Below are positions 23-9,508 of a DNA stretch of 9,508 nucleotides, one piece after another. The stretch's first letter is position 1, and every line of letters starts with the position of its first letter. Under the pieces are notes generated by a model, which was not told the DNA's origin, searched no databases, and worked only from the letters and a program-made list of their open reading frames with translations. Origin of the DNA: Actinomycetota bacterium (GTDB lineage: Bacteria; Actinomycetota; Actinomycetes; Streptosporangiales; Streptosporangiaceae); assembly GCA_003140115.1 (NCBI GenBank), contig PLIQ01000103.1, forward strand, positions 7,052 to 16,559, given 5' to 3'. The translations under genes and the position numbers were made by a program.

Positions 23-1093
23 GTGGATTTGTCACTGAGCGAGGACCAGCAGACGCTGCGCACGGCGTTCGCCGAGTTCTTCGATAAGGAAGCGACGGTG
101 GATCGGGTCCGGGCCGCCGAGCCGCTCGGTTTCGACCAGGACCTGTGGGCCAAGCTGGCCGGGACCGGGGCCGTGGCCATGGGCCTGCCCGAGGAAGCGG
201 GCGGCGGCGGGGCCACCAACTTGGACCTGGCCCTGGTCGCCGAGCAGTACGGCCGGCGGCTCGCACCGGTGCCGTTCGTCGAGTGCGCCGCGGCCGGCGC
301 GATACTCGCCGCGGCCGACGCCACCGACCTGCTGGACGGCGTGGCCGACGGCAGCACGCTGCCGACGCTCGCGCTGTCACCGCCCCGCGACGGGCGGCTG
401 CCGCTGGTGCCCGCGGGCGCGGTGGCCGAGATCGTCGTCGCGCTCGACGGCGATCGCCTGATCGCGCTGCGCCGCGAGCCCGGCCCGCGTCCGCGCCCCT
501 ACGTCGCGGCCAGCCCGAACTTCGGCTCGAGCCCGCTGGCCGACTGGTCGCTGACCGACGGCGAGCGGATCGAACTGGCCGCCGGACCGCGAGCCGTCCA
601 GCTCTATCAGGACGGCGTGAGCCAGTGGAAGCTGCTGACCGGCGCGGCGCTGGGCGGCCTGCGCGCGTCGGCCCTGGAGCTCGGCGTCTCCTACGTCAAG
701 GCGCGCAAGGCGTTCGGCGTCATCATCGGCTCGTTCCAGGCCATCCAGCACCGCCTGGCCGACCTGGTGGTGGCGGGCGACGGCGCCCAGCTGCTGGTCT
801 ACGAGGCGGCCTGGGCCCGGGACACCGGCCAGCCCGAGGCCGCCGCGCTGGCCTCGATGGCCTTCTTGTTCAACGCGGACACCGCGTTCCGAACCACCCG
901 GGAGTGCCTGCAGTTCCACGGCGGCTACGGCGTCACGCTCGAGTACGACATCCAGCTGTACTTCCGGCGGGCCAAGGCCTGGCCGCTGGCCCTGGGCGAC
1001 CCGAAGCGGGAGTACCAGCGGCTCGCCGACCTGGCCTACCCCCAATCCGGCCCGGTGAAAGAAGACACAGTGAAAGACACGGGGGAGGAGTAA
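23..1093 (+). CDS. Acyl-CoA dehydrogenase family protein, probable non-catalytic partner subunit
   Basis: 356-residue member of the acyl-CoA dehydrogenase (ACAD) superfamily, flavoenzymes that make the alpha,beta double bond in acyl-CoAs. Visible are the helical N-terminal domain (about 1-110), a middle beta domain (about 110-195) and the C-terminal helical domain with RKAFGVIIGSFQAIQHRLAD (228-247) and QFHGGYG (297-303), both typical of the FAD-binding part. The usual catalytic Glu is missing at both known sites. The helix position used by isovaleryl-CoA dehydrogenase (ERL) falls in QWKLLTGAALGG (201-212), and the C-terminal YEGT segment used by MCAD is absent. This pattern fits the non-catalytic half of heteromeric ACADs such as mycobacterial ChsE1-ChsE2. 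The GTG start has GAGGAG at 9-14, 8 nt upstream. The next gene starts 3 nt after the stop, so the two are co-transcribed. Family assignment is firm; the subunit role is inference. Confidence 0.9.
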   Translation: MDLSLSEDQQTLRTAFAEFFDKEATVDRVRAAEPLGFDQDLWAKLAGTGAVAMGLPEEAGGGGATNLDLALVAEQYGRRLAPVPFVECAAAGAILAAADATDLLDGVADGSTLPTLALSPPRDGRLPLVPAGAVAEIVVALDGDRLIALRREPGPRPRPYVAASPNFGSSPLADWSLTDGERIELAAGPRAVQLYQDGVSQWKLLTGAALGGLRASALELGVSYVKARKAFGVIIGSFQAIQHRLADLVVAGDGAQLLVYEAAWARDTGQPEAAALASMAFLFNADTAFRTTRECLQFHGGYGVTLEYDIQLYFRRAKAWPLALGDPKREYQRLADLAYPQSGPVKEDTVKDTGEE

Positions 1094-1096
1094 AAA

Positions 1097-2278
1097 GTGG
1101 ACTTCAAGGACGTCGACAAGCTCGCCGAGTACCGTCAGGGCGCACGCGACTGGGTGGACAAGCACGTCGATCCCGCCTGGGCCGAGCAGCAGCGGACCTC
1201 GGGCAGCTACCACACCCCCGAGCTGCACGCGCTGCTGGCCGAGCAGGGCTGGTTCGGCGCGGGCTGGCCGGCCGAATACGGCGGCACCGCCAACGACCCG
1301 GACATGGCCGCCGCGCTGATCGAGGAGATCGAAGGCGCCGGCCTGCACCTGGACGGCTGGTACACCACCAGGATGATCGCCAGCACGCTGCTGCGCACCG
1401 CCACCGAGGAGCAGAAGCGCGCCTACGTCGGCGGGGCGCTGCGCGGCGAGATCGTCATCGTGCTCGGCTACAGCGAGCCCGACTCCGGCTCGGACGTGGC
1501 CGCGGCCAAGACCCGGTCCCAGCGTGACGGCGACGAGTGGCTGATCAACGGCCAGAAGATGTTCACCAGCACCGCGCACCGGGCCACTCACGTCTTCATG
1601 CTCACCCGCAGCAACACCGAGGTACCCAAGCACAAGGGCCTGACCACGTTCATGGTCCCGCTGGCCAGTCCCGGGGTGGAGATCAGGCCCGTGTACACGC
1701 TCGGCGGCCAGCGCACCAACGCCACCTTCTACGGCGACGTGCGGGTCCCGGACGCGGCGCGGATCGGCCCGGTCGACGGCGGCTGGGGGGTCATGCACGT
1801 GGCCCTGGTCTTCGAGCGCAGCGGCAGCGGCGGCGGCCGCCGGTCCGGGCCCACCCTGGCCGAACGGGTCGCGAGCTGGGCCCAGCAGACCCGCCGCGAC
1901 GACGGCACCCGGGTCTACGACGACGCCACGGTCAAGGAACGGCTGGCCCGGATCGCCATCGACGCCGAGGTCTCCCGGCTGCTGGGCCTGCGGACCGCCT
2001 GGATCTCCGCCACCGGCGGGCTGCCCGGCACCGAGGGCTCGGAGACCAAGCTGTTCAGCGCCGAGAGCGCGCAGCGTCAGCACTGGGACCTGCTGGACAT
2101 CCTCGGCGCCGAGGCGGTGCTGAGGCGGGAGGCGGACGACGCGCCGCTGACCGCGGCGGTCGAGGAGGCGTTCCGGCGCGGTGTCGTCGGCACCATCTAC
2201 GGCGGGTCCTCGGAGATCATGCGCGAGATCGTCGCCGAGCGCGTGCTCGGCCTGCCCCGGGTCCGCGCCCGGAACTGA
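1097..2278 (+). CDS. Acyl-CoA dehydrogenase, probable catalytic subunit
   Basis: 393-residue ACAD of normal length. It has the N-terminal helical domain, the middle-domain motif LGYSEPDSGSDVAAAKT (123-139), WLINGQKMFTSTA (148-160) that contacts flavin, and the C-terminal IYGGSSEIMREIVAERVLGLPR region with the adenine/FAD contacts. At the C-terminal base position of MCAD it has Gly (IYGG), but VFERSG carries Glu240 where isovaleryl-CoA dehydrogenase and ChsE4-type enzymes have their catalytic Glu, so this subunit probably supplies the base. The GTG start is preceded by GGGGGAGGAG at 1081-1090, which overlaps the end of the preceding gene; spacing is 6 nt. The tight coupling to the preceding base-less ACAD suggests a 1:1 complex acting in one beta-oxidation-like step, perhaps on a bulky or branched acyl-CoA. 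The substrate cannot be read. The gene converges on the next gene with a 7-bp gap. Confidence 0.93.
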   Translation: MDFKDVDKLAEYRQGARDWVDKHVDPAWAEQQRTSGSYHTPELHALLAEQGWFGAGWPAEYGGTANDPDMAAALIEEIEGAGLHLDGWYTTRMIASTLLRTATEEQKRAYVGGALRGEIVIVLGYSEPDSGSDVAAAKTRSQRDGDEWLINGQKMFTSTAHRATHVFMLTRSNTEVPKHKGLTTFMVPLASPGVEIRPVYTLGGQRTNATFYGDVRVPDAARIGPVDGGWGVMHVALVFERSGSGGGRRSGPTLAERVASWAQQTRRDDGTRVYDDATVKERLARIAIDAEVSRLLGLRTAWISATGGLPGTEGSETKLFSAESAQRQHWDLLDILGAEAVLRREADDAPLTAAVEEAFRRGVVGTIYGGSSEIMREIVAERVLGLPRVRARN

Positions 2279-2285
2279 CCCGCCC

Positions 2286-3185
2286 TTACAGGCCCGCGGC
2301 CCGGGTCATCACGGTGTCGGCGAAATGCCGCATGGCCGCGAGCGAGTCGTCGATGACCGGGCTGGCCCTGATGCCGAAGTCCACCGATACCGACGTGGCC
2401 CCGATGGCGGCCAGCCGTTCCAGCCGCCGCAGCAGGTCCGCGGGCTCCGCGTCCGCGGTGACCTGGCCCAGGCTCAGCTCCAGCCCGATCTGGCCGTCAC
2501 GGCCCTGCGCGGCCAGCAGGTCCCGCAGCCGGGGCAGCGCCGCCGCCACCTCCTCGGCCGACAGGCCGATCGGCGTCCAGCCCTGCCCGAACCGCGCGAT
2601 CCGGCGCAGCGACGCCTGCCCCGCGCCACTGCCGATGTAAATCGGCATGGGCCGCTGCACCGGCTTAGGCTCGAAGATCAAAGGCGGGAATGATACCGAA
2701 CGGCCGTGGTACTCGCCCTCGCCCTCGAACAGCACGCGCAGCGCGGCCAGGTACTCATCCACCACCGCGCCGCGCCGGTCGAACGGGATCCCGGCGATGT
2801 CGAATTCGTCCTTCATCCAGCCCACCCCGACCTCCAGGGTCAGCCGGCCGCCGGACAGGTAGTCCAGCGTGGCCACCGACTTGGCCGTGCTGAACGGCGA
2901 GCGCAGGGCCAGCAGCAGCACGCTGGGCTGGAACCGCAGCCGCGTCGTCTGGCCGGCCAGGAAGGCGAAGGTGGTCAGCATCTCCAGCCGCTGCCCGGAC
3001 GGCGAGGGCGGCATCCGGCCGTCCGGCGTGTACGGGTACGGCGCCGCGATCACGGCCGGGTAGACCAGGTGCTCGCCCATCTTGACGTGGTCGAAGCCAA
3101 GCTCCTCGGCCGTCGCCGCGAACGCCCCCACGTTCCCCGGCGTCCCGGCCGGCCCGGCCCACGGTAGTGCGGTCGCGAATTTCAT
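2286..3185 (-). CDS. LLM-class (luciferase-like) F420-dependent oxidoreductase
   Basis: 299-residue cytosolic TIM-barrel protein of the luciferase-like monooxygenase superfamily. Supporting motifs are the N-terminal MKFATALPWAG strand, AEELGFDHVKMGEHL (26-40), TLDYLSGGRLTLEVGVGWM (106-124, the classical LLM signature), and PIYIGSGAGQASLRRIARFG (181-200), the phosphate-binding segment that holds F420 or FMN. Length and motif order resemble the actinobacterial TIGR03619-type family, whose members are mostly annotated as F420-dependent. The reaction and substrate are unknown; a redox step on an acyl-CoA-pathway intermediate is inferred only from neighbours. The ATG is preceded by a close, weak GGAG. 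The gene is divergent from the ArsR-type regulator with a 132-bp gap, a common arrangement for a regulator and its target. It converges with the dehydrogenase operon and no clear terminator was seen between them. Confidence 0.9.
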   Translation of the reverse strand: MKFATALPWAGPAGTPGNVGAFAATAEELGFDHVKMGEHLVYPAVIAAPYPYTPDGRMPPSPSGQRLEMLTTFAFLAGQTTRLRFQPSVLLLALRSPFSTAKSVATLDYLSGGRLTLEVGVGWMKDEFDIAGIPFDRRGAVVDEYLAALRVLFEGEGEYHGRSVSFPPLIFEPKPVQRPMPIYIGSGAGQASLRRIARFGQGWTPIGLSAEEVAAALPRLRDLLAAQGRDGQIGLELSLGQVTADAEPADLLRRLERLAAIGATSVSVDFGIRASPVIDDSLAAMRHFADTVMTRAAGL

Positions 3186-3317: not shown

Positions 3318-3746
3318 ATGCCCATGGATGCCATGTCGCCACAGCCACCCACCGAGATCTTCAAGGCCCTGAGTGACCCGGTCCGGTGGAGCATCATCGT
3401 GCAGATGGCCGCGGTAGACGAGCTGGCGTGCATCACGCTCGAGGACACGCTGCCCGTCTCCAAGCCCACGATCTCCTACCACACGAAGATCCTCCAGCAC
3501 GCGGGGCTGATCAGCGTGCGCAAGTCGGGTCGTAATTACTACTACTCGCTGCGCCGCGACGTGCTGCACAAGCTGCTGGACGACCTGTGGGAGCTCGCGC
3601 CCACGCCGCGCCCGGTGGTCAGCAAGGAAGACGGCCAGATGGCCATGGGCCGCGGCAAGCGCGCCGACGGGCACCTGGCCAGCCCGGCCCGCAAGCGCCG
3701 CGCCAACCGCGAGGCCGTCGAAGAGGCCGTCGTCCTGACCTGGTAA
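3318..3746 (+). CDS. ArsR-family winged helix-turn-helix transcriptional regulator
   Basis: 142-residue DNA-binding regulator. The N-terminal part is a typical ArsR/HTH_20 domain: FKALSDPVRWSIIVQM (15-30) for the first helix, the helix-turn-helix with recognition helix SKPTISYHTKILQHAGLI (48-65), and a beta-hairpin wing SVRKSGRNYYYSL (66-78). The metal-site CxC of classical ArsR/SmtB proteins is absent; only Cys38 lies in that region (ELACITLED), so a metal sensor is unlikely and an organic or acyl-CoA ligand is possible. The C-terminal tail (about 100-142) is basic and low-complexity (GRGKRA, SPARKRRANRE), unusual for the family and perhaps an extra DNA contact. The ATG at 3318 has AGGAAC about 4 nt upstream; the ATGs at 3324 and 3333 are alternatives. 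It lies between the divergent oxidoreductase and the thiolase operon and probably controls one or both. Confidence 0.88.
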   Translation: MPMDAMSPQPPTEIFKALSDPVRWSIIVQMAAVDELACITLEDTLPVSKPTISYHTKILQHAGLISVRKSGRNYYYSLRRDVLHKLLDDLWELAPTPRPVVSKEDGQMAMGRGKRADGHLASPARKRRANREAVEEAVVLTW

Positions 3747-3883: not shown

Positions 3884-3913
3884 TTGACGTGACGGTCGGC
3901 CGGTCCTTAGCAT
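3884..3913 (+). promoter_or_regulatory. Promoter of the thiolase/DUF35 operon, leaderless type
   Basis: TTGACG (3884-3889), 18 nt, TAGCAT (3908-3913, fits the actinobacterial TAnnnT -10). The -10 ends 6 nt before the A of the ATG at 3920, so transcription should start at or next to the start codon. No Shine-Dalgarno sequence precedes this ATG, which agrees with a leaderless mRNA. Confidence 0.6.
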
Positions 3914-3919
3914 CAGCGC

Positions 3920-5092
3920 ATGACCTTCCCACGGCGGATGGCCGCGATCACCGGGGTCTACACGACCGTCCAGGGCAAGAAGCTCGGCCGGACCGAGGAG
4001 TCCCTCAAGCTCGAGGCCGTCAAGGGCGCGCTGGCCGAAAGCGGGCTGTCCTTCAGCGACGTCGACGGCATCGTCCCGATGGAATCATCGATGCACGGCC
4101 CGGGCTTGGTGTACCACATGCAGTGGGCCGAGCAGCTGGGCGGCCGTCCGCTCGGCTTCATGGGCATCGGCCAGGCCTCAGCCGGCGTGGCCAAGGCGGC
4201 GGCCGCCATCGACGCCGGGATGGCCGAGGTCGTGGTGGTGTTCTGGGCCAACGGCGGCTTCCAGATCGGACCGCGCGGGACACCCGTCCCGGATACCGCG
4301 CCTCGCACCTGGGAGTGGTCCTTCGACGTCCACGGTGCGTACATGACCACGTGGTACGCGATGTGGGCCGAGCGCTACATGCACGAGTTCGGCGCTACCC
4401 CCGAGGACCTGGCCCAGGTCGCGGTGACCCACCGCTATCACGCCACCCTCAAGCCGGACTCGATCATGGGCCGCCGCGGCGAGATCACGGTCGACGACGT
4501 GCTGAACTCCCGGATGATCTGCTCCCCGCTGCACCTGTTCGACTGCGCCATCGACAATGAGGGCGGCTACGCCATCGTGGTCACCTCCGCGGCGGTGGCC
4601 AGGAACTGCGCCCAGACCCCGGTCTGGGTCCTGGGCGGCGCCGAGGCCGCGTACACCGACTTCTACACCACGATCCAGGATCCGTGGTTCCCCCGCAGCG
4701 GGTACGCGGTGCGCCGGATCGGGGACATGGTCTTCGACATGGCCGGCGTCAGCCGGGACGACATCGACGTGGCCGGCCTGTACGACTGCTTCACCATCAC
4801 CATGCTCCGGGACCTGGAGGAGCTCGGGTTCTGCAAGCTGGGCGAGGGGGCCGCGTACTTCGCGGAGGGCCACACCCGGCTCGGCGGCTCGATGCCGTGC
4901 AACACCGACGGCGGCCTGCTGTCCAACAGCCACTGCGGCAGCCCGTCGGGGCTGCACACGATCGAGGTCGTGCGGCAACTGCGCGGCGAATGCGGCGAGC
5001 GGCAGGTGCCCGGAGCCCAGATCGGACTCTCCCTGGCCCAGGGCATGTCCCCGCACGGGCTGACCTCAGCGCTGATCATGGCGACCGACTAG
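3920..5092 (+). CDS. Thiolase-like protein (Ltp/SCP-x type), nucleophilic Cys absent; candidate acyl-CoA aldolase subunit
   Basis: 390-residue member of the thiolase superfamily, of the kind annotated as lipid-transfer protein or acetyl-CoA acetyltransferase in actinobacteria. Thiolase half 1 (about 1-225) contains MGIGQASAGVAKAAAAIDAG (81-100), where the family normally has a nucleophilic Cys in a CAS/CAT context; here that position is about Gln85. Half 2 (about 230-390) has LYDCFTITML (287-296), GHTRLGGSMPCNTDGGLLSN (317-336), His338 in SNSHCG, and SPHGLT (377-382) in place of the second-Cys loop. Loss of the nucleophile together with a DUF35 partner is known from Ltp2, a retro-aldolase that uses tyrosines (Tyr288 is a candidate). 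A Claisen thiolase reaction is therefore doubtful. The stop overlaps the AGGAGG for the DUF35 gene. It is a paralogue of the gene at 5586-6758. Confidence 0.88.
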   Translation: MTFPRRMAAITGVYTTVQGKKLGRTEESLKLEAVKGALAESGLSFSDVDGIVPMESSMHGPGLVYHMQWAEQLGGRPLGFMGIGQASAGVAKAAAAIDAGMAEVVVVFWANGGFQIGPRGTPVPDTAPRTWEWSFDVHGAYMTTWYAMWAERYMHEFGATPEDLAQVAVTHRYHATLKPDSIMGRRGEITVDDVLNSRMICSPLHLFDCAIDNEGGYAIVVTSAAVARNCAQTPVWVLGGAEAAYTDFYTTIQDPWFPRSGYAVRRIGDMVFDMAGVSRDDIDVAGLYDCFTITMLRDLEELGFCKLGEGAAYFAEGHTRLGGSMPCNTDGGLLSNSHCGSPSGLHTIEVVRQLRGECGERQVPGAQIGLSLAQGMSPHGLTSALIMATD

Positions 5093-5105
5093 GAGGAAAT
5101 GACAG

Positions 5106-5543
5106 ATGACGGTCCTAGCCGAAGCGGCCGAGCCGTACCTCAAGCCGCTGCCGCAGGTCACCGAGGCCAACCGGGAGTTCTTCGAGGGCCTCAAGCGCCG
5201 GGAGTTCCTGGTGCCGAAGTGCGACCAGTGCGGCGACTACAACTGGGTCCCGTACCCGGCCTGCCGTTCCTGCCTGTCGGAGAACCAGACCTGGACGCAG
5301 GTGTCGGGCGAGGCCACCGTGTACACCTACTCGGTCATCTACCGCGGCCCGGGCGCCTTCGACGCCGACGTCCCCTACGTCGTCGCCCTCGGCGAGCTGG
5401 CCGAGCGCCCGCGGCCGTGCCTGGTGCTGGCCAACCTGGTCGGAACGGACCCGGACCAGGTGCGGGTCGGGATGCCGATCCAGATTGCCTACCAGGACAT
5501 CCCCGGCGAGGACGTCACCCTCTGGCGCTGGGTCGCGCGCTGA
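5106..5543 (+). CDS. DUF35 zinc-ribbon/OB-fold protein, thiolase partner
   Basis: 145-residue protein with the two DUF35 parts: a helix plus rubredoxin-like zinc ribbon with Cys39-x2-Cys42 and Cys53-x2-Cys56, then an OB fold (about 65-145) including ATVYTYSVIYRGPGAF and PYVVALGELAERPRPCLVL. In characterised systems DUF35 proteins bind thiolase-superfamily enzymes, either as a bridge that passes acyl-CoA (archaeal thiolase/HMG-CoA synthase complex) or as the obligate partner of the aldolase Ltp2 (ChsH2 C-terminal domain). Here the protein stands alone, without the MaoC hydratase fused in ChsH2. It lies between two thiolase paralogues, 13 nt after the first and 42 nt before the second. The start at 5106 is chosen because AGGAGG (5091-5096) lies 9 nt upstream; the overlapping ATG at 5099 is too close and opens a frame without family resemblance. 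Confidence 0.92.
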   Translation: MTVLAEAAEPYLKPLPQVTEANREFFEGLKRREFLVPKCDQCGDYNWVPYPACRSCLSENQTWTQVSGEATVYTYSVIYRGPGAFDADVPYVVALGELAERPRPCLVLANLVGTDPDQVRVGMPIQIAYQDIPGEDVTLWRWVAR

Positions 5544-5585
5544 CCCCCAAGCAACAGCGCCCCCAGGAACAGGCAAGGAGCAGGT

Positions 5586-6758
5586 ATGCCATTCCCGTCC
5601 GGCAAGACCGCGATCGTCGGCGTGTACACCACCGCGCAGGCCAAGTCGCTCTTGCCGCGCACCCCGGTCTCGCTCCAGCTCGAGGCGGTCAAGGGCGCGC
5701 TCGATGACGCCGGCCTGTCCTTCAGCGACGTCGACGGCGTCATCCCCCTGGACCCGGCCCCGTACGGTACCCCCGCCTCGGTGCACATGTTCTGGGCCGA
5801 GCAGTTCGGCGAGCGGCCGCTGACCTACCTGGAGGTCGGCATCGCGTCCGGCGGCCTGGCCAAGGCGGCGACCGCGATCGGCGCCGGGATGGCCAACGTG
5901 GTGGTCCTGTTCTGGGGCAAGGCCGGTTACCAGATCGGCCCGCGCGGGACGCCCCAGCCCGATGCCGCCCCCCGGATCGGCGCGTGGGGCTACGACATCC
6001 ACGGCGCCTACATGACGCCCTGGTACGCCATGTGGGCGCAGCGCTACATGCACGACTTCGGGGTCACCGGGGCCGACCTGGCCGAGGTCGCTGTCACCCA
6101 TCGGTATCACGCCACCCTCAACCCGGACTCGATCATGGGCCGCCGCGGCGAGATCACCGTCGACGACGTGCTCGGCTCGCGCATCGTCGCCTCCCCGCTG
6201 CACCTGCTGGACTGCGCCATCGACAACGACGGCGGGTACGCGATCGTGATCGCGTCCGAGGCGGTGGCCCGGTCCTGCCGCAAGCCGCCGGTCTGGGTCC
6301 TCGGCGGCGCCGAGTCGGCCTACACCGACATCTACAGCTCCATCTCCGACCCGTGGTTCCCCGAGGAGGGCAAGGCCGTCCGGCGCACGGCTGACCTGGC
6401 CTTCGCCCAGGCCGGCGTGACCCGTGACGACATCGACGTGGCCGGCCTGTACGACTGCTTCACCGTGACCATGCTGCGGGACCTGGAGGAGATGGGCTTC
6501 TGCAAGCTCGGCGAGGGGGCGGCCTACTTCGCCGAGGGCCACACCCGCCTCGGCGGCTCCATGCCCGCCAACACCGACGGCGGCCTGCTCTCGAACAGCC
6601 ACAACACCAACCCCTCGGGTATGCACACCGTCGAGGTAGTCCGCCAGCTGCGCGGCGAATGCGGCCCCCGCCAGGTCCCCGACGCCAAGATCGGCATCTG
6701 CCTAGCCCAGGGCTACGCCGTCCACGGCATGGCCGGCACCCTGATCATGGCCGTGTAG
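5586..6758 (+). CDS. Second thiolase-like protein, paralogue of the first, also lacking the nucleophilic Cys
   Basis: 390-residue thiolase-superfamily protein, colinear with the product of 3920-5092 and roughly 70% identical by eye, higher in the C-terminal two-thirds. The nucleophile region reads EVGIASGGLAKAATAIGAG (83-101), with Ile86 near the usual Cys position. Retained are LYDCFT (Tyr289), GHTRLGGSMPANTDGGLLSN (318-337), His339 in SNSHNT, and AVHGMAG (378-384). Most differences from the paralogue lie in residues 20-90, including PAPYGTPASVHM, and around SHNTNPSG versus SHCGSPSG. Those regions shape the acyl pocket or dimer interface in this fold, so the two may differ in substrate or form a heteromer. 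AAGGAG (5575-5580) lies 5 nt before the ATG. It is the third gene of the operon. A redundant duplicate, a pseudo-catalytic subunit and a second specificity are all possible. Confidence 0.88.
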   Translation: MPFPSGKTAIVGVYTTAQAKSLLPRTPVSLQLEAVKGALDDAGLSFSDVDGVIPLDPAPYGTPASVHMFWAEQFGERPLTYLEVGIASGGLAKAATAIGAGMANVVVLFWGKAGYQIGPRGTPQPDAAPRIGAWGYDIHGAYMTPWYAMWAQRYMHDFGVTGADLAEVAVTHRYHATLNPDSIMGRRGEITVDDVLGSRIVASPLHLLDCAIDNDGGYAIVIASEAVARSCRKPPVWVLGGAESAYTDIYSSISDPWFPEEGKAVRRTADLAFAQAGVTRDDIDVAGLYDCFTVTMLRDLEEMGFCKLGEGAAYFAEGHTRLGGSMPANTDGGLLSNSHNTNPSGMHTVEVVRQLRGECGPRQVPDAKIGICLAQGYAVHGMAGTLIMAV

Positions 6759-7328: not shown

Positions 7329-7979
7329 CTAGCGCCACGCGAATACGGGCTGCTCGAAGTGGGCTACCCGGGTGGTCAGGCCGTGCAGGGCCACCTGGCA
7401 GAACTGGTGGATGATGGCGGCGGTCGGCGTGTACACGTAGCCGCCCAGCAGGGCCAGCCGCAGGACCAGCGCCGGCGATTCCGGGATGGCCAGCAACTCC
7501 GGCGGGCGGTCGAAGTCGGCCAGCGGGATCACGTGGATCCGCGCCACCTCCGCGGCCTGCTTCGTGAGCGTGCCCACCGGTCCGCCCCAGACCACCACGG
7601 GCGTGATCAGGAAGCCGGACCGGGTCGCGAAATCGTCTAGGACGCCGAGCACCTCGTCCGCCGAAACCACCACGCCCGTTTCCTCGCGCAGTTCCCGCAG
7701 CGCCGCGTCCGGCACGGACTCGCCGGGTTCCCGGCTTCCCCCGGGCAGCGCCCACTGCCCGGAATGGTTCCGCAGGCCCGCCGCCCGCCTGGTGATCAGC
7801 AGGCTGAGGACATCCTGCTGCTGCAGCACGCAGATCGCCACCGACGCGGCCCGCAGGCCAGGCCGCGAGATCGGGACCCGCCGGAACCCGGCCAGGCGGG
7901 CCGCGATGGCACTCCTGTCGTCCGCCACCGAACCCGCGGAACCCGCAGAACCCGGATCAGAACCCGCAGAACCCGTCAT
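7329..7979 (-). CDS. Nudix hydrolase, probable CoA diphosphatase (NudL-like)
   Basis: 216-residue Nudix protein. The Nudix box is complete: G81-x5-E87-x7-R95-E-L-x-E99-E100-x-G102, which binds the metal for diphosphate cleavage. Just before it, LLITRRAAGLRNHSGQWALP (60-79) matches the extra motif of CoA-pyrophosphatase Nudix enzymes (LLTxR..LRxHxGQ..FPGG, with Leu for Phe), so cleavage of CoA or acyl-CoA to 3',5'-ADP and phosphopantetheine is likely. The C-terminal FEQPVFAWR also suits that group. The N-terminal 19 residues are a Gly-Ser-Ala repeat coded by a 9-bp DNA repeat. ATG at 7979 is preferred over the in-frame GTG at 7985 because GAGG lies 5 nt upstream of the ATG but abuts the GTG. 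It is the second gene after the crotonase, 42 nt downstream. Confidence 0.88.
   Translation of the reverse strand: MTGSAGSDPGSAGSAGSVADDRSAIAARLAGFRRVPISRPGLRAASVAICVLQQQDVLSLLITRRAAGLRNHSGQWALPGGSREPGESVPDAALRELREETGVVVSADEVLGVLDDFATRSGFLITPVVVWGGPVGTLTKQAAEVARIHVIPLADFDRPPELLAIPESPALVLRLALLGGYVYTPTAAIIHQFCQVALHGLTTRVAHFEQPVFAWR
7930..7977 (-). repeat. 9-bp short tandem repeat in the 5' end of the Nudix gene
   Basis: Five 9-bp units of the form GAACCCGnn on the plus strand (7930, 7939, 7948, 7960, 7969), with a 3-bp TCA insertion between the third and fourth. They code for the Gly-Ser-Ala/Asp-rich N-terminus. Both unit and insertion keep frame, so copy number could vary without disrupting the enzyme. 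Confidence 0.8.
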
Positions 7980-8021
7980 AAGCACCTCAGCATCGACGGC
8001 AGCCCGTGGAATTCCCCGCGG

Positions 8022-8759
8022 CTACCTGCTCGCCTTGGCCCGGATGGCGTCCTTGAACCCGTCGGTCATGTTCCACTTGAAGTTCCCCGCCACGATAGCG
8101 GCATTTTGCAGCCGCTCGGCCAGCACGCTCCGCCGGTACCTGACCGTTTCTCGCAACGCCGCCTGCGGGTGCGCGATCACCTGCCGGGCCAGCGCCGAGG
8201 CCTCCTCGAGATGGTGGCCGCTGGCCGCGACCTTGGTGATCAGGCCCGCCCGGAAGGCTTCCTCCGCGGTGAAGAACCGGCCGGTCAGCACCACGTCGTT
8301 GGCGAACGAAGCACCGGTGGCACAGGCGATATGAGCCCAGAAGCTGGCCGTCGGCACTCCGTAGCTCGTCTCGGTGACCTGGAACCGGGTGTCCTCGGCG
8401 GCGACCACGAATTCGCAGAGCAAGGCCGTGCCCAGGGCGTGGCCGATCGCGTATCCGTGCACCGCCGCCACGAGCGGTTTGTAGTTCTCGCAGCGCAGGA
8501 CCGCCTGAGTCTCGCTCGGCAGGGACCGGCTGTCCACTCCCTCGTCGGCGATGGCCAGCAGCCGCTGGTTGATATCCGACCCGGTCGAGAAGGCCCGTCC
8601 CGCCCCGGACACGATGCCGATCTGCGCGTCGTCGTCCCGGTCCAGGCGGTCCAAGGCCGCCACGTACTCGACCAGGCCGCTGTTGGTGAAGGCGTTGAGC
8701 TTCTCGGGCCGGTTGAGCCTGATATAGGCGATGCCGTCGATCACTTCGTAGTCGATCAT
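8022..8759 (-). CDS. Enoyl-CoA hydratase/isomerase (crotonase) family protein
   Basis: 245-residue crotonase-fold protein acting on acyl-CoA thioesters. Motifs: IAYIRLNRPEKLNAF (10-24), the first oxyanion-hole segment SGAGRAFSTGSDINQ (51-65), the second segment VHGYAIGHALGTALLCEFV (100-118), and ETSYGVP (130-136). Aligned with rat mitochondrial enoyl-CoA hydratase, the Glu144 position is Gly110 while the Glu164 position is Glu130. A standard two-Glu hydration is therefore doubtful; an isomerase, a hydrolase-like or a decarboxylase-like role is possible. ATG 8759 is chosen because family similarity begins there (MIDYEVIDG) and the length is normal. The open frame continues to 8894, but that extension is low-complexity, overlaps promoter palindromes and lacks a ribosome site. 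AGGAAA lies about 10 nt upstream of 8759, spaced rather far. It is first in an operon with the Nudix gene and divergent from the carboxyltransferase. Confidence 0.85.
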   Translation of the reverse strand: MIDYEVIDGIAYIRLNRPEKLNAFTNSGLVEYVAALDRLDRDDDAQIGIVSGAGRAFSTGSDINQRLLAIADEGVDSRSLPSETQAVLRCENYKPLVAAVHGYAIGHALGTALLCEFVVAAEDTRFQVTETSYGVPTASFWAHIACATGASFANDVVLTGRFFTAEEAFRAGLITKVAASGHHLEEASALARQVIAHPQAALRETVRYRRSVLAERLQNAAIVAGNFKWNMTDGFKDAIRAKASR

Positions 8760-8793
8760 CTGCTGCCGTATTTCCTGTTGGCGTGAATCCGGG

Positions 8794-8810
8794 CCCGCCG
8801 CACCGGCGGG
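8794..8810 (-). other. GC-rich hairpin in the probable crotonase leader
   Basis: CCCGCCG-CAC-CGGCGGG is a perfect 7-bp stem with a 3-nt loop. Flanking GGGCC (8791-8795) and GGCCC (8822-8826) allow a competing larger fold. It lies about 35 nt upstream of the preferred start and could affect translation or early termination. No known riboswitch class is recognised. Confidence 0.4.
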
Positions 8811-8875
8811 ACGCGCCGCGCCGGCCCGCACGGCATGAACCGATGATGGCACAAAGATAGATAAATGTACAAGTA

Positions 8876-8905
8876 TTGACACGTGTCGATGCATCGCACT
8901 AATGT
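8876..8905 (+). promoter_or_regulatory. Promoter of the carboxyltransferase gene
   Basis: A perfect TTGACA (8876-8881), 18 nt, then TAATGT (8900-8905, TAnnnT type). Transcription would start near 8912, leaving a 70-nt leader with GGAGAG (8971-8976) before the ATG at 8982. It lies at the edge of an A/T-rich block (about 8850-8880), which may also carry the crotonase promoter on the other strand. Confidence 0.6.
8878..8896. promoter_or_regulatory. Two abutting 10-bp palindromes, candidate operator
   Basis: GACACGTGTC (8878-8887) and CGATGCATCG (8887-8896) are both perfect palindromes sharing one base. They fill the spacer between -35 and -10 of the carboxyltransferase promoter in a divergent intergenic region. 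Such placement suits a repressor, for example of the TetR type, but no regulator gene adjoins this site. Confidence 0.45.
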
Positions 8906-8981
8906 GCTCTTGACCTGCCGATCACGATCGGCCAGCGCACGCTCGTCTCAGAAGCGGGACGCCGCACTCAGGAGAGAGCCA

Positions 8982-9508
8982 ATGACCTCGGAAGAGATCA
9001 GGACGGTCGAACGGCTCCGCGCGCTTCGCACGCAGGTCACCACCGAGATGGGCGGCGCGGCGGCGGTCAGTGCGATCCACGCGGCTGGCCGCCGGACGGC
9101 CCGCGAGCACATCGCCCAGTTCGTTGACGCTGGGTCGTTCGGTGAAATAGGGACGTTCGCGACGTTCGTCGACAAGGTGACGGCACCCGAGCCGGGGCCC
9201 TACGGTGGCGGCATCATCGGCGGGCACGCCACCCTCGACGGCCGGGCGGTTACCGTGGCCACCGATGACGACAGCGTGGCCACCCCGGCCCGGCGCAGCA
9301 CCGGCAAGGCCGCCCGGCTGTACCAGATGGCGCTCCAGCAGCGCCGCCCCTACATCGAGATCGCCAACGGCGACACCGTCCCCGACCTGGCCGCCCGGCC
9401 CGGCAAGACCGGCACGGCGAACGCCCGGACGTTCGGCGCCGAGCCCGCGTTCCCGTACCTGCTCGAGCGCCAGCGGGCCATCCCGGTGGTCTGCATGGTG
9501 CTGGGCGA
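8982..9508 (+). CDS. Acyl-CoA carboxylase carboxyltransferase subunit, N-terminal part (cut by window end)
   Basis: The frame is open from ATG 8982 to the window edge (175 full codons). The product resembles the N-terminal half of carboxyltransferase beta subunits (acetyl-/propionyl-CoA carboxylase, methylmalonyl-CoA decarboxylase alpha type): AAGRRTAREHIAQFVDAGSF (34-53, like the HARGRLTARERI..LLDPGSF signature), GGGIIGGHATLDGRAVTVAT (75-94), and FPYLLERQRAIPVVCMVLG (157-175). It diverges in places. The usual FGGS segment reads DDDSVATPARRSTGKAARLY, and the GGGARIQE loop is replaced by NGDTVPDLAARPGKTG, so it is an unusual paralogue whose substrate cannot be named. GGAGAG (8971-8976) lies 5 nt before the ATG. 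It is transcribed away from the crotonase and could feed or use the short acyl-CoA released by the neighbouring pathway. Confidence 0.82.
   Translation, partial: MTSEEIRTVERLRALRTQVTTEMGGAAAVSAIHAAGRRTAREHIAQFVDAGSFGEIGTFATFVDKVTAPEPGPYGGGIIGGHATLDGRAVTVATDDDSVATPARRSTGKAARLYQMALQQRRPYIEIANGDTVPDLAARPGKTGTANARTFGAEPAFPYLLERQRAIPVVCMVLG

Follow-up and report, generated by a model that had tools for sequence, protein, structure and literature searches.

What can two closely related thiolase-like proteins do with a single DUF35 partner? The question is raised by a 9,508-nucleotide stretch of an actinomycete genome (hereafter the window; contig PLIQ01000103.1 of assembly GCA_003140115.1, Streptosporangiaceae), in which two paralogous genes, A and B, stand on either side of a gene, D, for a stand-alone DUF35 protein. 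A first-pass annotation of the sequence had described this arrangement, and the two thiolase-like open reading frames (ORFs) indeed sit around the DUF35 gene at the positions given there. The locus is a real, conserved variant in which two chains of the type of Sal, the bile-acid side-chain aldolase of Comamonas testosteroni (CtSal), occur with one DUF35 protein. Judging from sequence and from analogy to solved aldolases, A and B are probably both catalytically competent as retro-aldolase chains of the Sal type, with D as their one DUF35 subunit; we infer the reaction, the substrate class (a bulky or cyclic side chain) and the complex with D from the comparisons below.

A and B are identical at 276 of 390 aligned positions (71%), with 1 gap, and both contain Thiolase_C_1 (PF22691) above the gathering score (141.7 and 139.7 bits, respectively). 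None of the NCBIfam thiolase or lipid-transfer models passes its curated cut-off, the best scores being 255.9 for A (PRK06158) and 239.4 for B where 421 is needed. D matches OB_ChsH2_C and zf-ChsH2, with PF01796 above the gathering score (73 bits). The three genes are co-directional and look like one operon because the gaps are short (13 bases between A and D, 42 bases between D and B) and Shine-Dalgarno-like sites precede D and B.

Residue equivalences were derived from profile alignment to solved structures and, for A and B, additionally from single-sequence alignments. The motifs quoted in the first-pass annotation are present (GQASAG, residues 84-89 of A; GIASGG, residues 85-90 of B), and alignment puts Q85 of A and I86 of B where 7yvy has the Cys of CASG and 7pxp (BbsB) that of CSAG, so that the nucleophilic Cys is lost as claimed. 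The nucleophile-elbow Cys of canonical SCP2- or BbsB-type thiolases is missing from all 12 aligned members of the family, A and B included, and the catalytic His of the HDx(A/C) motif (H-D-A in 7yvy and 7pxp) is replaced by Tyr in both A and B; of the canonical thiolase features, the His of the GHP region is retained (H338 in A, H339 in B). The Tyr-Cys pair of Sal is found in both proteins, Y288-C290 of A and Y289-C291 of B being aligned with YDCY of 9myr, whereas L333 and H338 of A occupy the positions of Sal Gln347 and Gln352. Neither protein has the YDHF motif and Tyr344 of Ltp2; both have YDCF and a His. The proposed check of the Ltp2 tyrosines therefore gives a split result: the first is kept and the second catalytic Tyr is His in A and B, and retention of Ltp2-type tyrosines was rejected as a description of the pair. 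The term 'cysteine-less' does not describe these proteins, given that each contains several Cys, including that of YDCF (C290 in A, C291 in B). Nor does the claim that a reactive Cys is missing fit, because the Cys kept in both corresponds to the proposed acid of CtSal (PMC12329534). The finding that was to speak against the first-pass proposal, a reactive Cys in the active site, is thus probably present, as far as alignment to solved chains can tell, in the form of a different Cys. The cysteine-less reading appears to hold for the nucleophile and to be false for the active site, and the proposed carbon-carbon lyase chemistry seems to agree better with an active-site Cys than with its lack. 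In CtSal, Tyr302 is described as the base and Cys304 as the proposed acid, both being needed, and the C304A, C304S and C304H variants are without activity (PMC12329534).

Among solved proteins, the most significant match of A is 6ok1 (E 3.4e-55) and that of B is 4u4e (E 1.5e-56), so that chance is not at issue. In the profile ranking, 4u4e (named 'Thiolase'), 6ok1 (Ltp2 aldolase) and 9myr (Sal) come before 7yvy and 7pxp (BbsB thiolase); the solved chains closest to D are 9myr_B and 6ok1_B. We take 9myr to be CtSal-Shy since a constant offset of 24 places its residues on Tyr302, Cys304, Gln347 and Gln352 of the paper. At the nucleophile, YDC and His338 positions, 9myr has Gly, Y-D-C and Gln, and 6ok1 has Ala, Y294-D-H296 and Tyr344.

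Sal-Shy shares with the A/B-D set the thiolase fold, the lost nucleophilic Cys, the Tyr-Cys pair of YDC and a DUF35 partner, and the Sal step, like the role proposed here, comes after a hydratase (PMC12329534). It differs in having one kind of chain, which forms a central dimer with two flanking DUF35 domains, where two paralogues are found here, and its DUF35 is part of Shy, fused to a MaoC domain and with a C3H1 zinc site (PMC12329534), whereas D stands alone and has a C4 motif. The Ltp2-ChsH2 aldolase (6ok1) has in common with A/B-D the C4-zinc DUF35 reported in PMC12329534, as well as the thiolase fold, a non-Cys residue (Ala) at the nucleophile position and the YD-F motif. Its single thiolase-like chain combines YDHF with Tyr344, unlike the YDCF and His of A and B. 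A third relative by motif is TbSLP, the SCP2-thiolase-like protein of Trypanosoma brucei, whose structure we take to be PDB 5ab4. TbSLP shares YDCF and, in contrast to A and B with their partner D, has no DUF35 partner mentioned in the available text of PMC12329534. The ibuprofen route of IpfD/IpfE (PMC9195938) was also weighed as a functional analogue and set aside.

The relatives of A and B were drawn from genome scans only; the large scans scored just the top candidates of each genome (4 or 7, depending on the scan), and the genome samples overlap and contain their centre genomes. Members with more than 50% identity are found in M. pyrenivorans (L001), in a Sphingomonadaceae metagenome-assembled genome (G002, two copies on different contigs) and in G413, G818, G867, G871, G883 and G1159. 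Matches at E<=1e-80 were found in 1/396 genomes of the phylum sample and 5/397 of the order sample of G001, 2/249 of the family sample of G002, 3/112 of the family and 2/394 of the class sample of G883, and 1/166 of the order of G1159; a search of a class sample of G1159 with B as the query gave 1/266. Thiolase_C_1 has 8 to 19 matches in each of G001, G883, G871 and G818. The 12-member alignment comprises A, B, their counterparts A' and B' from G1159, and 8 singly standing relatives, of which L018 and L002 come from one genome and L002 is truncated at the end of a contig. All 12 have the Y, D and C, and the equivalent of H338 is a His in all 11 members with sequence at that position, while the nucleophile position holds Q (A, A', L017), I (B, B') or otherwise G, N or M.

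In all seven intact singly standing relatives (L014-L017, L020, L018, L001/L025), the thiolase gene is immediately followed by a DUF35 gene, and one also comes after the fragment of a family gene in L007; within the stretches inspected, which span about 3 to 20 kb, no second family thiolase was seen beside the singly standing relatives. More broadly, 43 of the 50 thiolase/DUF35 clusters in five genomes are simple pairs, as counted from Pfam hits at set E-values under a 3-kb gap rule, a procedure that overlooks divergent thiolases, the Ltp4-like protein of L026 among them. The arrangement in the window has one counterpart, in locus L031 of G1159, where two acyl-CoA dehydrogenase (ACAD) genes and A', B' and D' stand in a row on one strand (ACAD1-ACAD2-A'-B'-D'), with a TetR-like gene (by eye) before the ACAD pair; identity is 77% between A and A', 76% between B and B' and 65% between D and D'. 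Both paralogues are thus kept together with one DUF35 gene in the window (A-D-B) and in G1159 (A-B-D). Their linkage to a single DUF35 gene, as postulated, recurs in a second genome, in a different gene order. The upstream regulators differ, TetR-like in G1159 and of the ArsR/SmtB family in the window. Locus L031 also contains, near A'-B'-D', two tandem DUF35-thiolase pairs in which each thiolase has its own DUF35 (13314-16864, minus strand) and, about 5 kb past D', a Rieske oxygenase with a VanA_C domain (1024-2040, minus strand).

The tree groups A with A' (support 100/99) and B with B' (91/92), and a clade of A plus B is rejected (approximately unbiased test, p-AU 0.0002). Because of this pairing, the A/B duplication is old and has been kept with one DUF35 gene in two lineages. 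Without G1159, A and B are sisters (93/96), as must be the case when A' and B' are absent. Four-fold degenerate sites agree between A and B at 0.57, with 0.47 expected from composition, similar to A and L014 (0.54 vs 0.46); agreement this close to the expectation indicates that the pair is old, gives no sign of recent conversion and shows that B is not a fresh copy. Gene conversion and recent duplication accordingly found no support in these sites. Naive ratios of nonsynonymous to synonymous substitutions (A-B 0.40; A-A' 0.12; B-B' 0.08) were set aside as misleading because the GC content of third codon positions is 0.95-0.96 in A and B vs 0.70 in A' and 0.65 in B'.

Type-specific positions, at which A equals A' and B equals B' and the two types differ, number 28 of 390. 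None lies within residues 280-340, which hold YDC and H338 (p 0.007; there is one at 341), and they are enriched in residues 76-115 (7/28, p 0.016) and 376-386 (4/28, p 0.005), all p values being uncorrected and the regions having been picked after inspection. A departs at 6 positions from columns that are invariant in the relatives and B at 3, and A is for this reason, by sequence, the somewhat more derived copy; the end branches are similar (A 0.16, B 0.15). The pattern of A/B divergence suggests that the pocket or an interface has been tuned while both copies retained their catalytic core.

In the pathway that we propose, the ACAD1-ACAD2 pair would desaturate an acyl-CoA side chain, a hydratase (of the MaoC type in some relatives; none is seen in this window) would add water, and the A/B-D enzyme would split the resulting beta-hydroxyacyl-CoA into an aldehyde or ketone and acetyl- or propionyl-CoA. 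Oxidation of the aldehyde could follow in some relatives, through an aldehyde dehydrogenase (ALDH). By analogy with CtSal, Y288 of A or Y289 of B would deprotonate the beta-hydroxyl, upon which the C-C bond breaks, and C290 or C291, probably tuned by H338 or H339, would protonate the CoA enolate. No acyl-enzyme is expected to form because the nucleophile position is Gln or Ile. The C-C lyase chemistry of the Ltp2/Sal type put forward in the first-pass annotation thus gains support as likely from the YDC motif and the lost nucleophile.

The neighbourhoods of relatives are in keeping with such a pathway. Ten were fetched, including L021-L023, whose aldolases are 91-97% alike and count as about one case. 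ACADs related to ACAD1 and ACAD2 (49-62%) are found near the family gene in 4/10 (L021-L023 and L031); those in L024 and L025 are only about 28-36% alike, and at 1e-10 none is detected in L018, L019, L002 or L020. An ALDH related to that of L021 (53-95%) is present in 5/10 (L019-L023, the query locus L021 included), and L025 has a different, distant ALDH; since L021-L023 are from closely related genomes, this amounts to about three independent ALDH cases, with L025 in addition. MaoC-like genes are present in 4/10 (L002, L020, L024, L025), and in L025 the MaoC genes and the ACAD genes, a pair of each, form one row with genes for a CoA ligase and an ALDH. As indirect evidence, the ACAD/MaoC/ALDH set fits the functions needed by a beta-oxidation that stops at a retro-aldol step. 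L020 additionally encodes RraA-like and SnoaL proteins; along with the Rieske oxygenase of L031, these give at most a hint of a cyclic or aromatic substrate. The aldolase gene has related ALDH and SnoaL-like genes for neighbours not only in G883, G867 and G871 but also on the sphingomonad side, in G002 and G413 (53-63% across), and this shared company suggests a transferred pathway.

Several observations weigh against the assignment of A and B as Sal-type retro-aldolases with such a pathway. The top solved match 4u4e has YDSF instead of YDCF, with the His kept, so that the Sal type does not follow from the nearest structure alone; H338 belongs to the thiolase features and is lost in both Sal and Ltp2, and the helper residue Gln347 of CtSal is Leu333 in A. 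AlphaFold models of A and B, built on a 4-sequence alignment, reach a mean pLDDT (predicted local distance difference test) of only 28.7 and 28.8. Pfam detected no ALDH and no MaoC among the 10 ORFs scanned in the window, no gene of either kind was found in L031 or L018, and the MaoC-like ORF of L024 (5796-6248) matched nothing in Pfam at 1e-5. The grouping of A, A', B and B' into one clade is weakly supported (65/68). Finally, slow malonyl-CoA decarboxylation is reported for TbSLP (PMC12329534), and a different C-C reaction is conceivable for A and B.

If A and B are both competent retro-aldolase chains, they could be two ordinary isozymes that form A2D2 and B2D2 with different side-chain specificities, drawing on a common DUF35 pool and never mixing. 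We regard this as quite possible, if short of probable: the relatives pair a single thiolase with a single DUF35, the differences between A and B include the nucleophile elbow and the C-terminal loop, both plausible places for changes to the pocket, and active-site changes in Ltp2 and Sal track side-chain length (PMC12329534). The tandem thiolases of L031, alike by eye, argue the other way, each having its own DUF35 whereas A' and B' share one, although this is a single instance. More tentatively, A and B might be joined in an obligate heteromeric aldolase, built on one DUF35 scaffold and having two Tyr-Cys-His active sites that are not equivalent, as an alpha-beta pair evolved from a homodimeric Sal-type aldolase. 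Such a complex would be the first heterodimer known to us among aldolases of this class; a literature search by title and abstract start found none. The first-pass annotation raised a division of labour as a possibility, and a heteromer of one catalytic and one structural or regulatory chain, both clamped by D like PhlC and PhlA on PhlB, would be consistent with the retention of a single D with both paralogues in two lineages in spite of different gene orders, with the clustering of type-specific columns in 76-115 and 376-386, with the 6 vs 3 departures from invariant columns, and with acyl transfer by PhlC residues only in the PhlACB acyltransferase (PpATase; PMC6392133). We nevertheless consider it unlikely, as the Y, D, C and H positions are kept in both chains, the 280-340 region has none of the 28 type-specific substitutions and the end branches are of similar length.

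Two further explanations depart from a pair of retro-aldolases altogether. It is improbable that A and B are true thiolases or acyltransferases in which C290 serves as the nucleophile: the GHP-type His338 is retained and there is a Cys within an active-site motif, but the elbow Cys is missing throughout the family alignment, the catalytic His of HDA is Tyr, the equivalent Cys of CtSal is the proposed acid, and CtSal, with Gly at the nucleophile position, is inferred by its authors to be unable to thiolyse 3-ketoacyl-CoAs (PMC12329534). That B is a redundant recent copy heading for loss would agree with its identity to A and with the lack of a second copy beside the gene in relatives other than G1159; this explanation is already disfavoured and very unlikely in view of the old duplication in two lineages, the conserved catalytic positions and synonymous sites near the composition expectation.

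The first-pass statement that no described system has this arrangement was too strong, since PhlACB, the archaeal HMG-CoA synthase (HMGCS)/thiolase/DUF35 assembly and an Ltp3/Ltp4-type DUF35-thiolase-thiolase operon all have two thiolase-fold chains per DUF35 gene. PpATase is Phl(A2C2)2B4, and its authors point out the similar layout of the archaeal acetoacetyl-CoA thiolase/HMGCS/DUF35 complex; in these systems, one chain is HMGCS-like and the other thiolase-like, PhlC having the nucleophilic Cys88 (PMC6392133), whereas A and B are 71% identical and lack it. The operon, L026 of M. pyrenivorans, consists of a DUF35 gene with two OB domains followed by two tandem thiolase-superfamily genes that exceed the PRK07937 and PRK08313 cut-offs; unlike the same-family A and B, these chains belong to different NCBIfam families and have no YDC motif in their translations. 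The ltp3 and ltp4 genes are reportedly essential for C24-branched sterol side chains. Rv3521 of Mycobacterium tuberculosis is presumably a DUF35 protein. The gene order of L026 is that of Rv3521 (conserved hypothetical), Rv3522 (ltp4) and Rv3523 (ltp3), with Rv3520c listed as an F420-dependent oxidoreductase (PMC6429209). LLM genes stand on both sides of the L026 operon. Its Ltp4-like lipid-transfer protein (PRK07937; 2168-3232, minus strand) has no Pfam hit at E 0.001, and Pfam-based surveys therefore miss such thiolase-fold chains. What sets the present locus apart is the same-family Sal-type pair with one DUF35; no such YDC pair was found in the literature searched by title and abstract start, a search that left most subscription papers outside.

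The A/B pair is a natural test of whether a DUF35 protein can hold two different aldolase chains, and A, B and D bear on how homodimeric thiolases turn heteromeric. Members of this superfamily with the thiolase fold are numerous in some Actinobacteria and commonly go under the name of acetyl-CoA acetyltransferase or lipid-transfer protein. The present family, which unites the Sal dyad with the thiolase His and lies near ALDH and MaoC genes at several loci, strengthens the case for renaming part of them as C-C lyases, as has been proposed for TbSLP (PMC12329534).

The features of the window, which is GC-rich (66-74% per kb for the nine kb listed), are given in the table.

Features of the 9,508-nucleotide window, with the A-D-B locus first
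Feature	Coordinates	Strand	Basis
A, thiolase-superfamily, Sal-type (YDCF) aldolase-like chain, 390 aa	3920..5092	+	ORF, Pfam, alignment to solved structures
A Gln85 codon, position of thiolase nucleophilic Cys	4172..4174	+	alignment
A Y288-D289-C290, aligned with CtSal Y302-D-C304	4781..4789	+	alignment; roles from PMC12329534
A His338, aligned with thiolase GHP His, CtSal Gln352, Ltp2 Tyr344	4931..4933	+	alignment
Shine-Dalgarno-like GGAGG before D	5092..5096	+	read directly
D, stand-alone DUF35 (zinc ribbon + OB fold) protein, 145 aa	5106..5543	+	ORF, Pfam, solved relatives
D zinc-ribbon Cys4, C39xxC42-x10-C53xxC56	5220..5273	+	translation motif
Shine-Dalgarno-like AAGGAG before B	5575..5580	+	read directly
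B, paralogue of A, 390 aa, YDCF kept	5586..6758	+	ORF, Pfam, alignment
B Ile86 codon, position of thiolase nucleophilic Cys	5841..5843	+	alignment
B Y289-D290-C291	6450..6458	+	alignment
B His339, equivalent of A His338	6600..6602	+	alignment
ACAD1, acyl-CoA dehydrogenase; best solved relative 6wy8_A (Tcur3481)	23..1093	+	Pfam, structure search
ACAD2, acyl-CoA dehydrogenase; best solved relatives 6wy9_A and 6wy8_B (Tcur3483)	1097..2278	+	Pfam, structure search
F420-dependent LLM-class oxidoreductase, between ACAD pair and A-D-B	2286..3185	-	over TIGR03619 cut-off
ArsR/SmtB-family regulator just upstream of A	3318..3746	+	NF033788 over cut-off
NUDIX (CoA pyrophosphatase-like)	7329..7985	-	
Crotonase-family gene	8022..8894	-	
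Carboxyltransferase gene	8883..9506	+	

The best matches of ACAD1 and ACAD2 are the two chains of 6wy8/6wy9 (Tcur3481/Tcur3483), which we take to be steroid acyl-CoA dehydrogenases. From its position, the ArsR-family protein is a possible local regulator. A search for a second DUF35 copy or remnant elsewhere in the window returned a single match of 14 residues (E 0.89), and a plasmid search covered 573 records, in all of which the best place is below 60% identity (about 40% in the top listed rows). The scan for terminators found none on the plus strand and that for promoters one promoter-like site (3884-3913, plus strand; 0.2 expected); neither was used in the interpretation. The crotonase-family and carboxyltransferase genes overlap at their starts as called.

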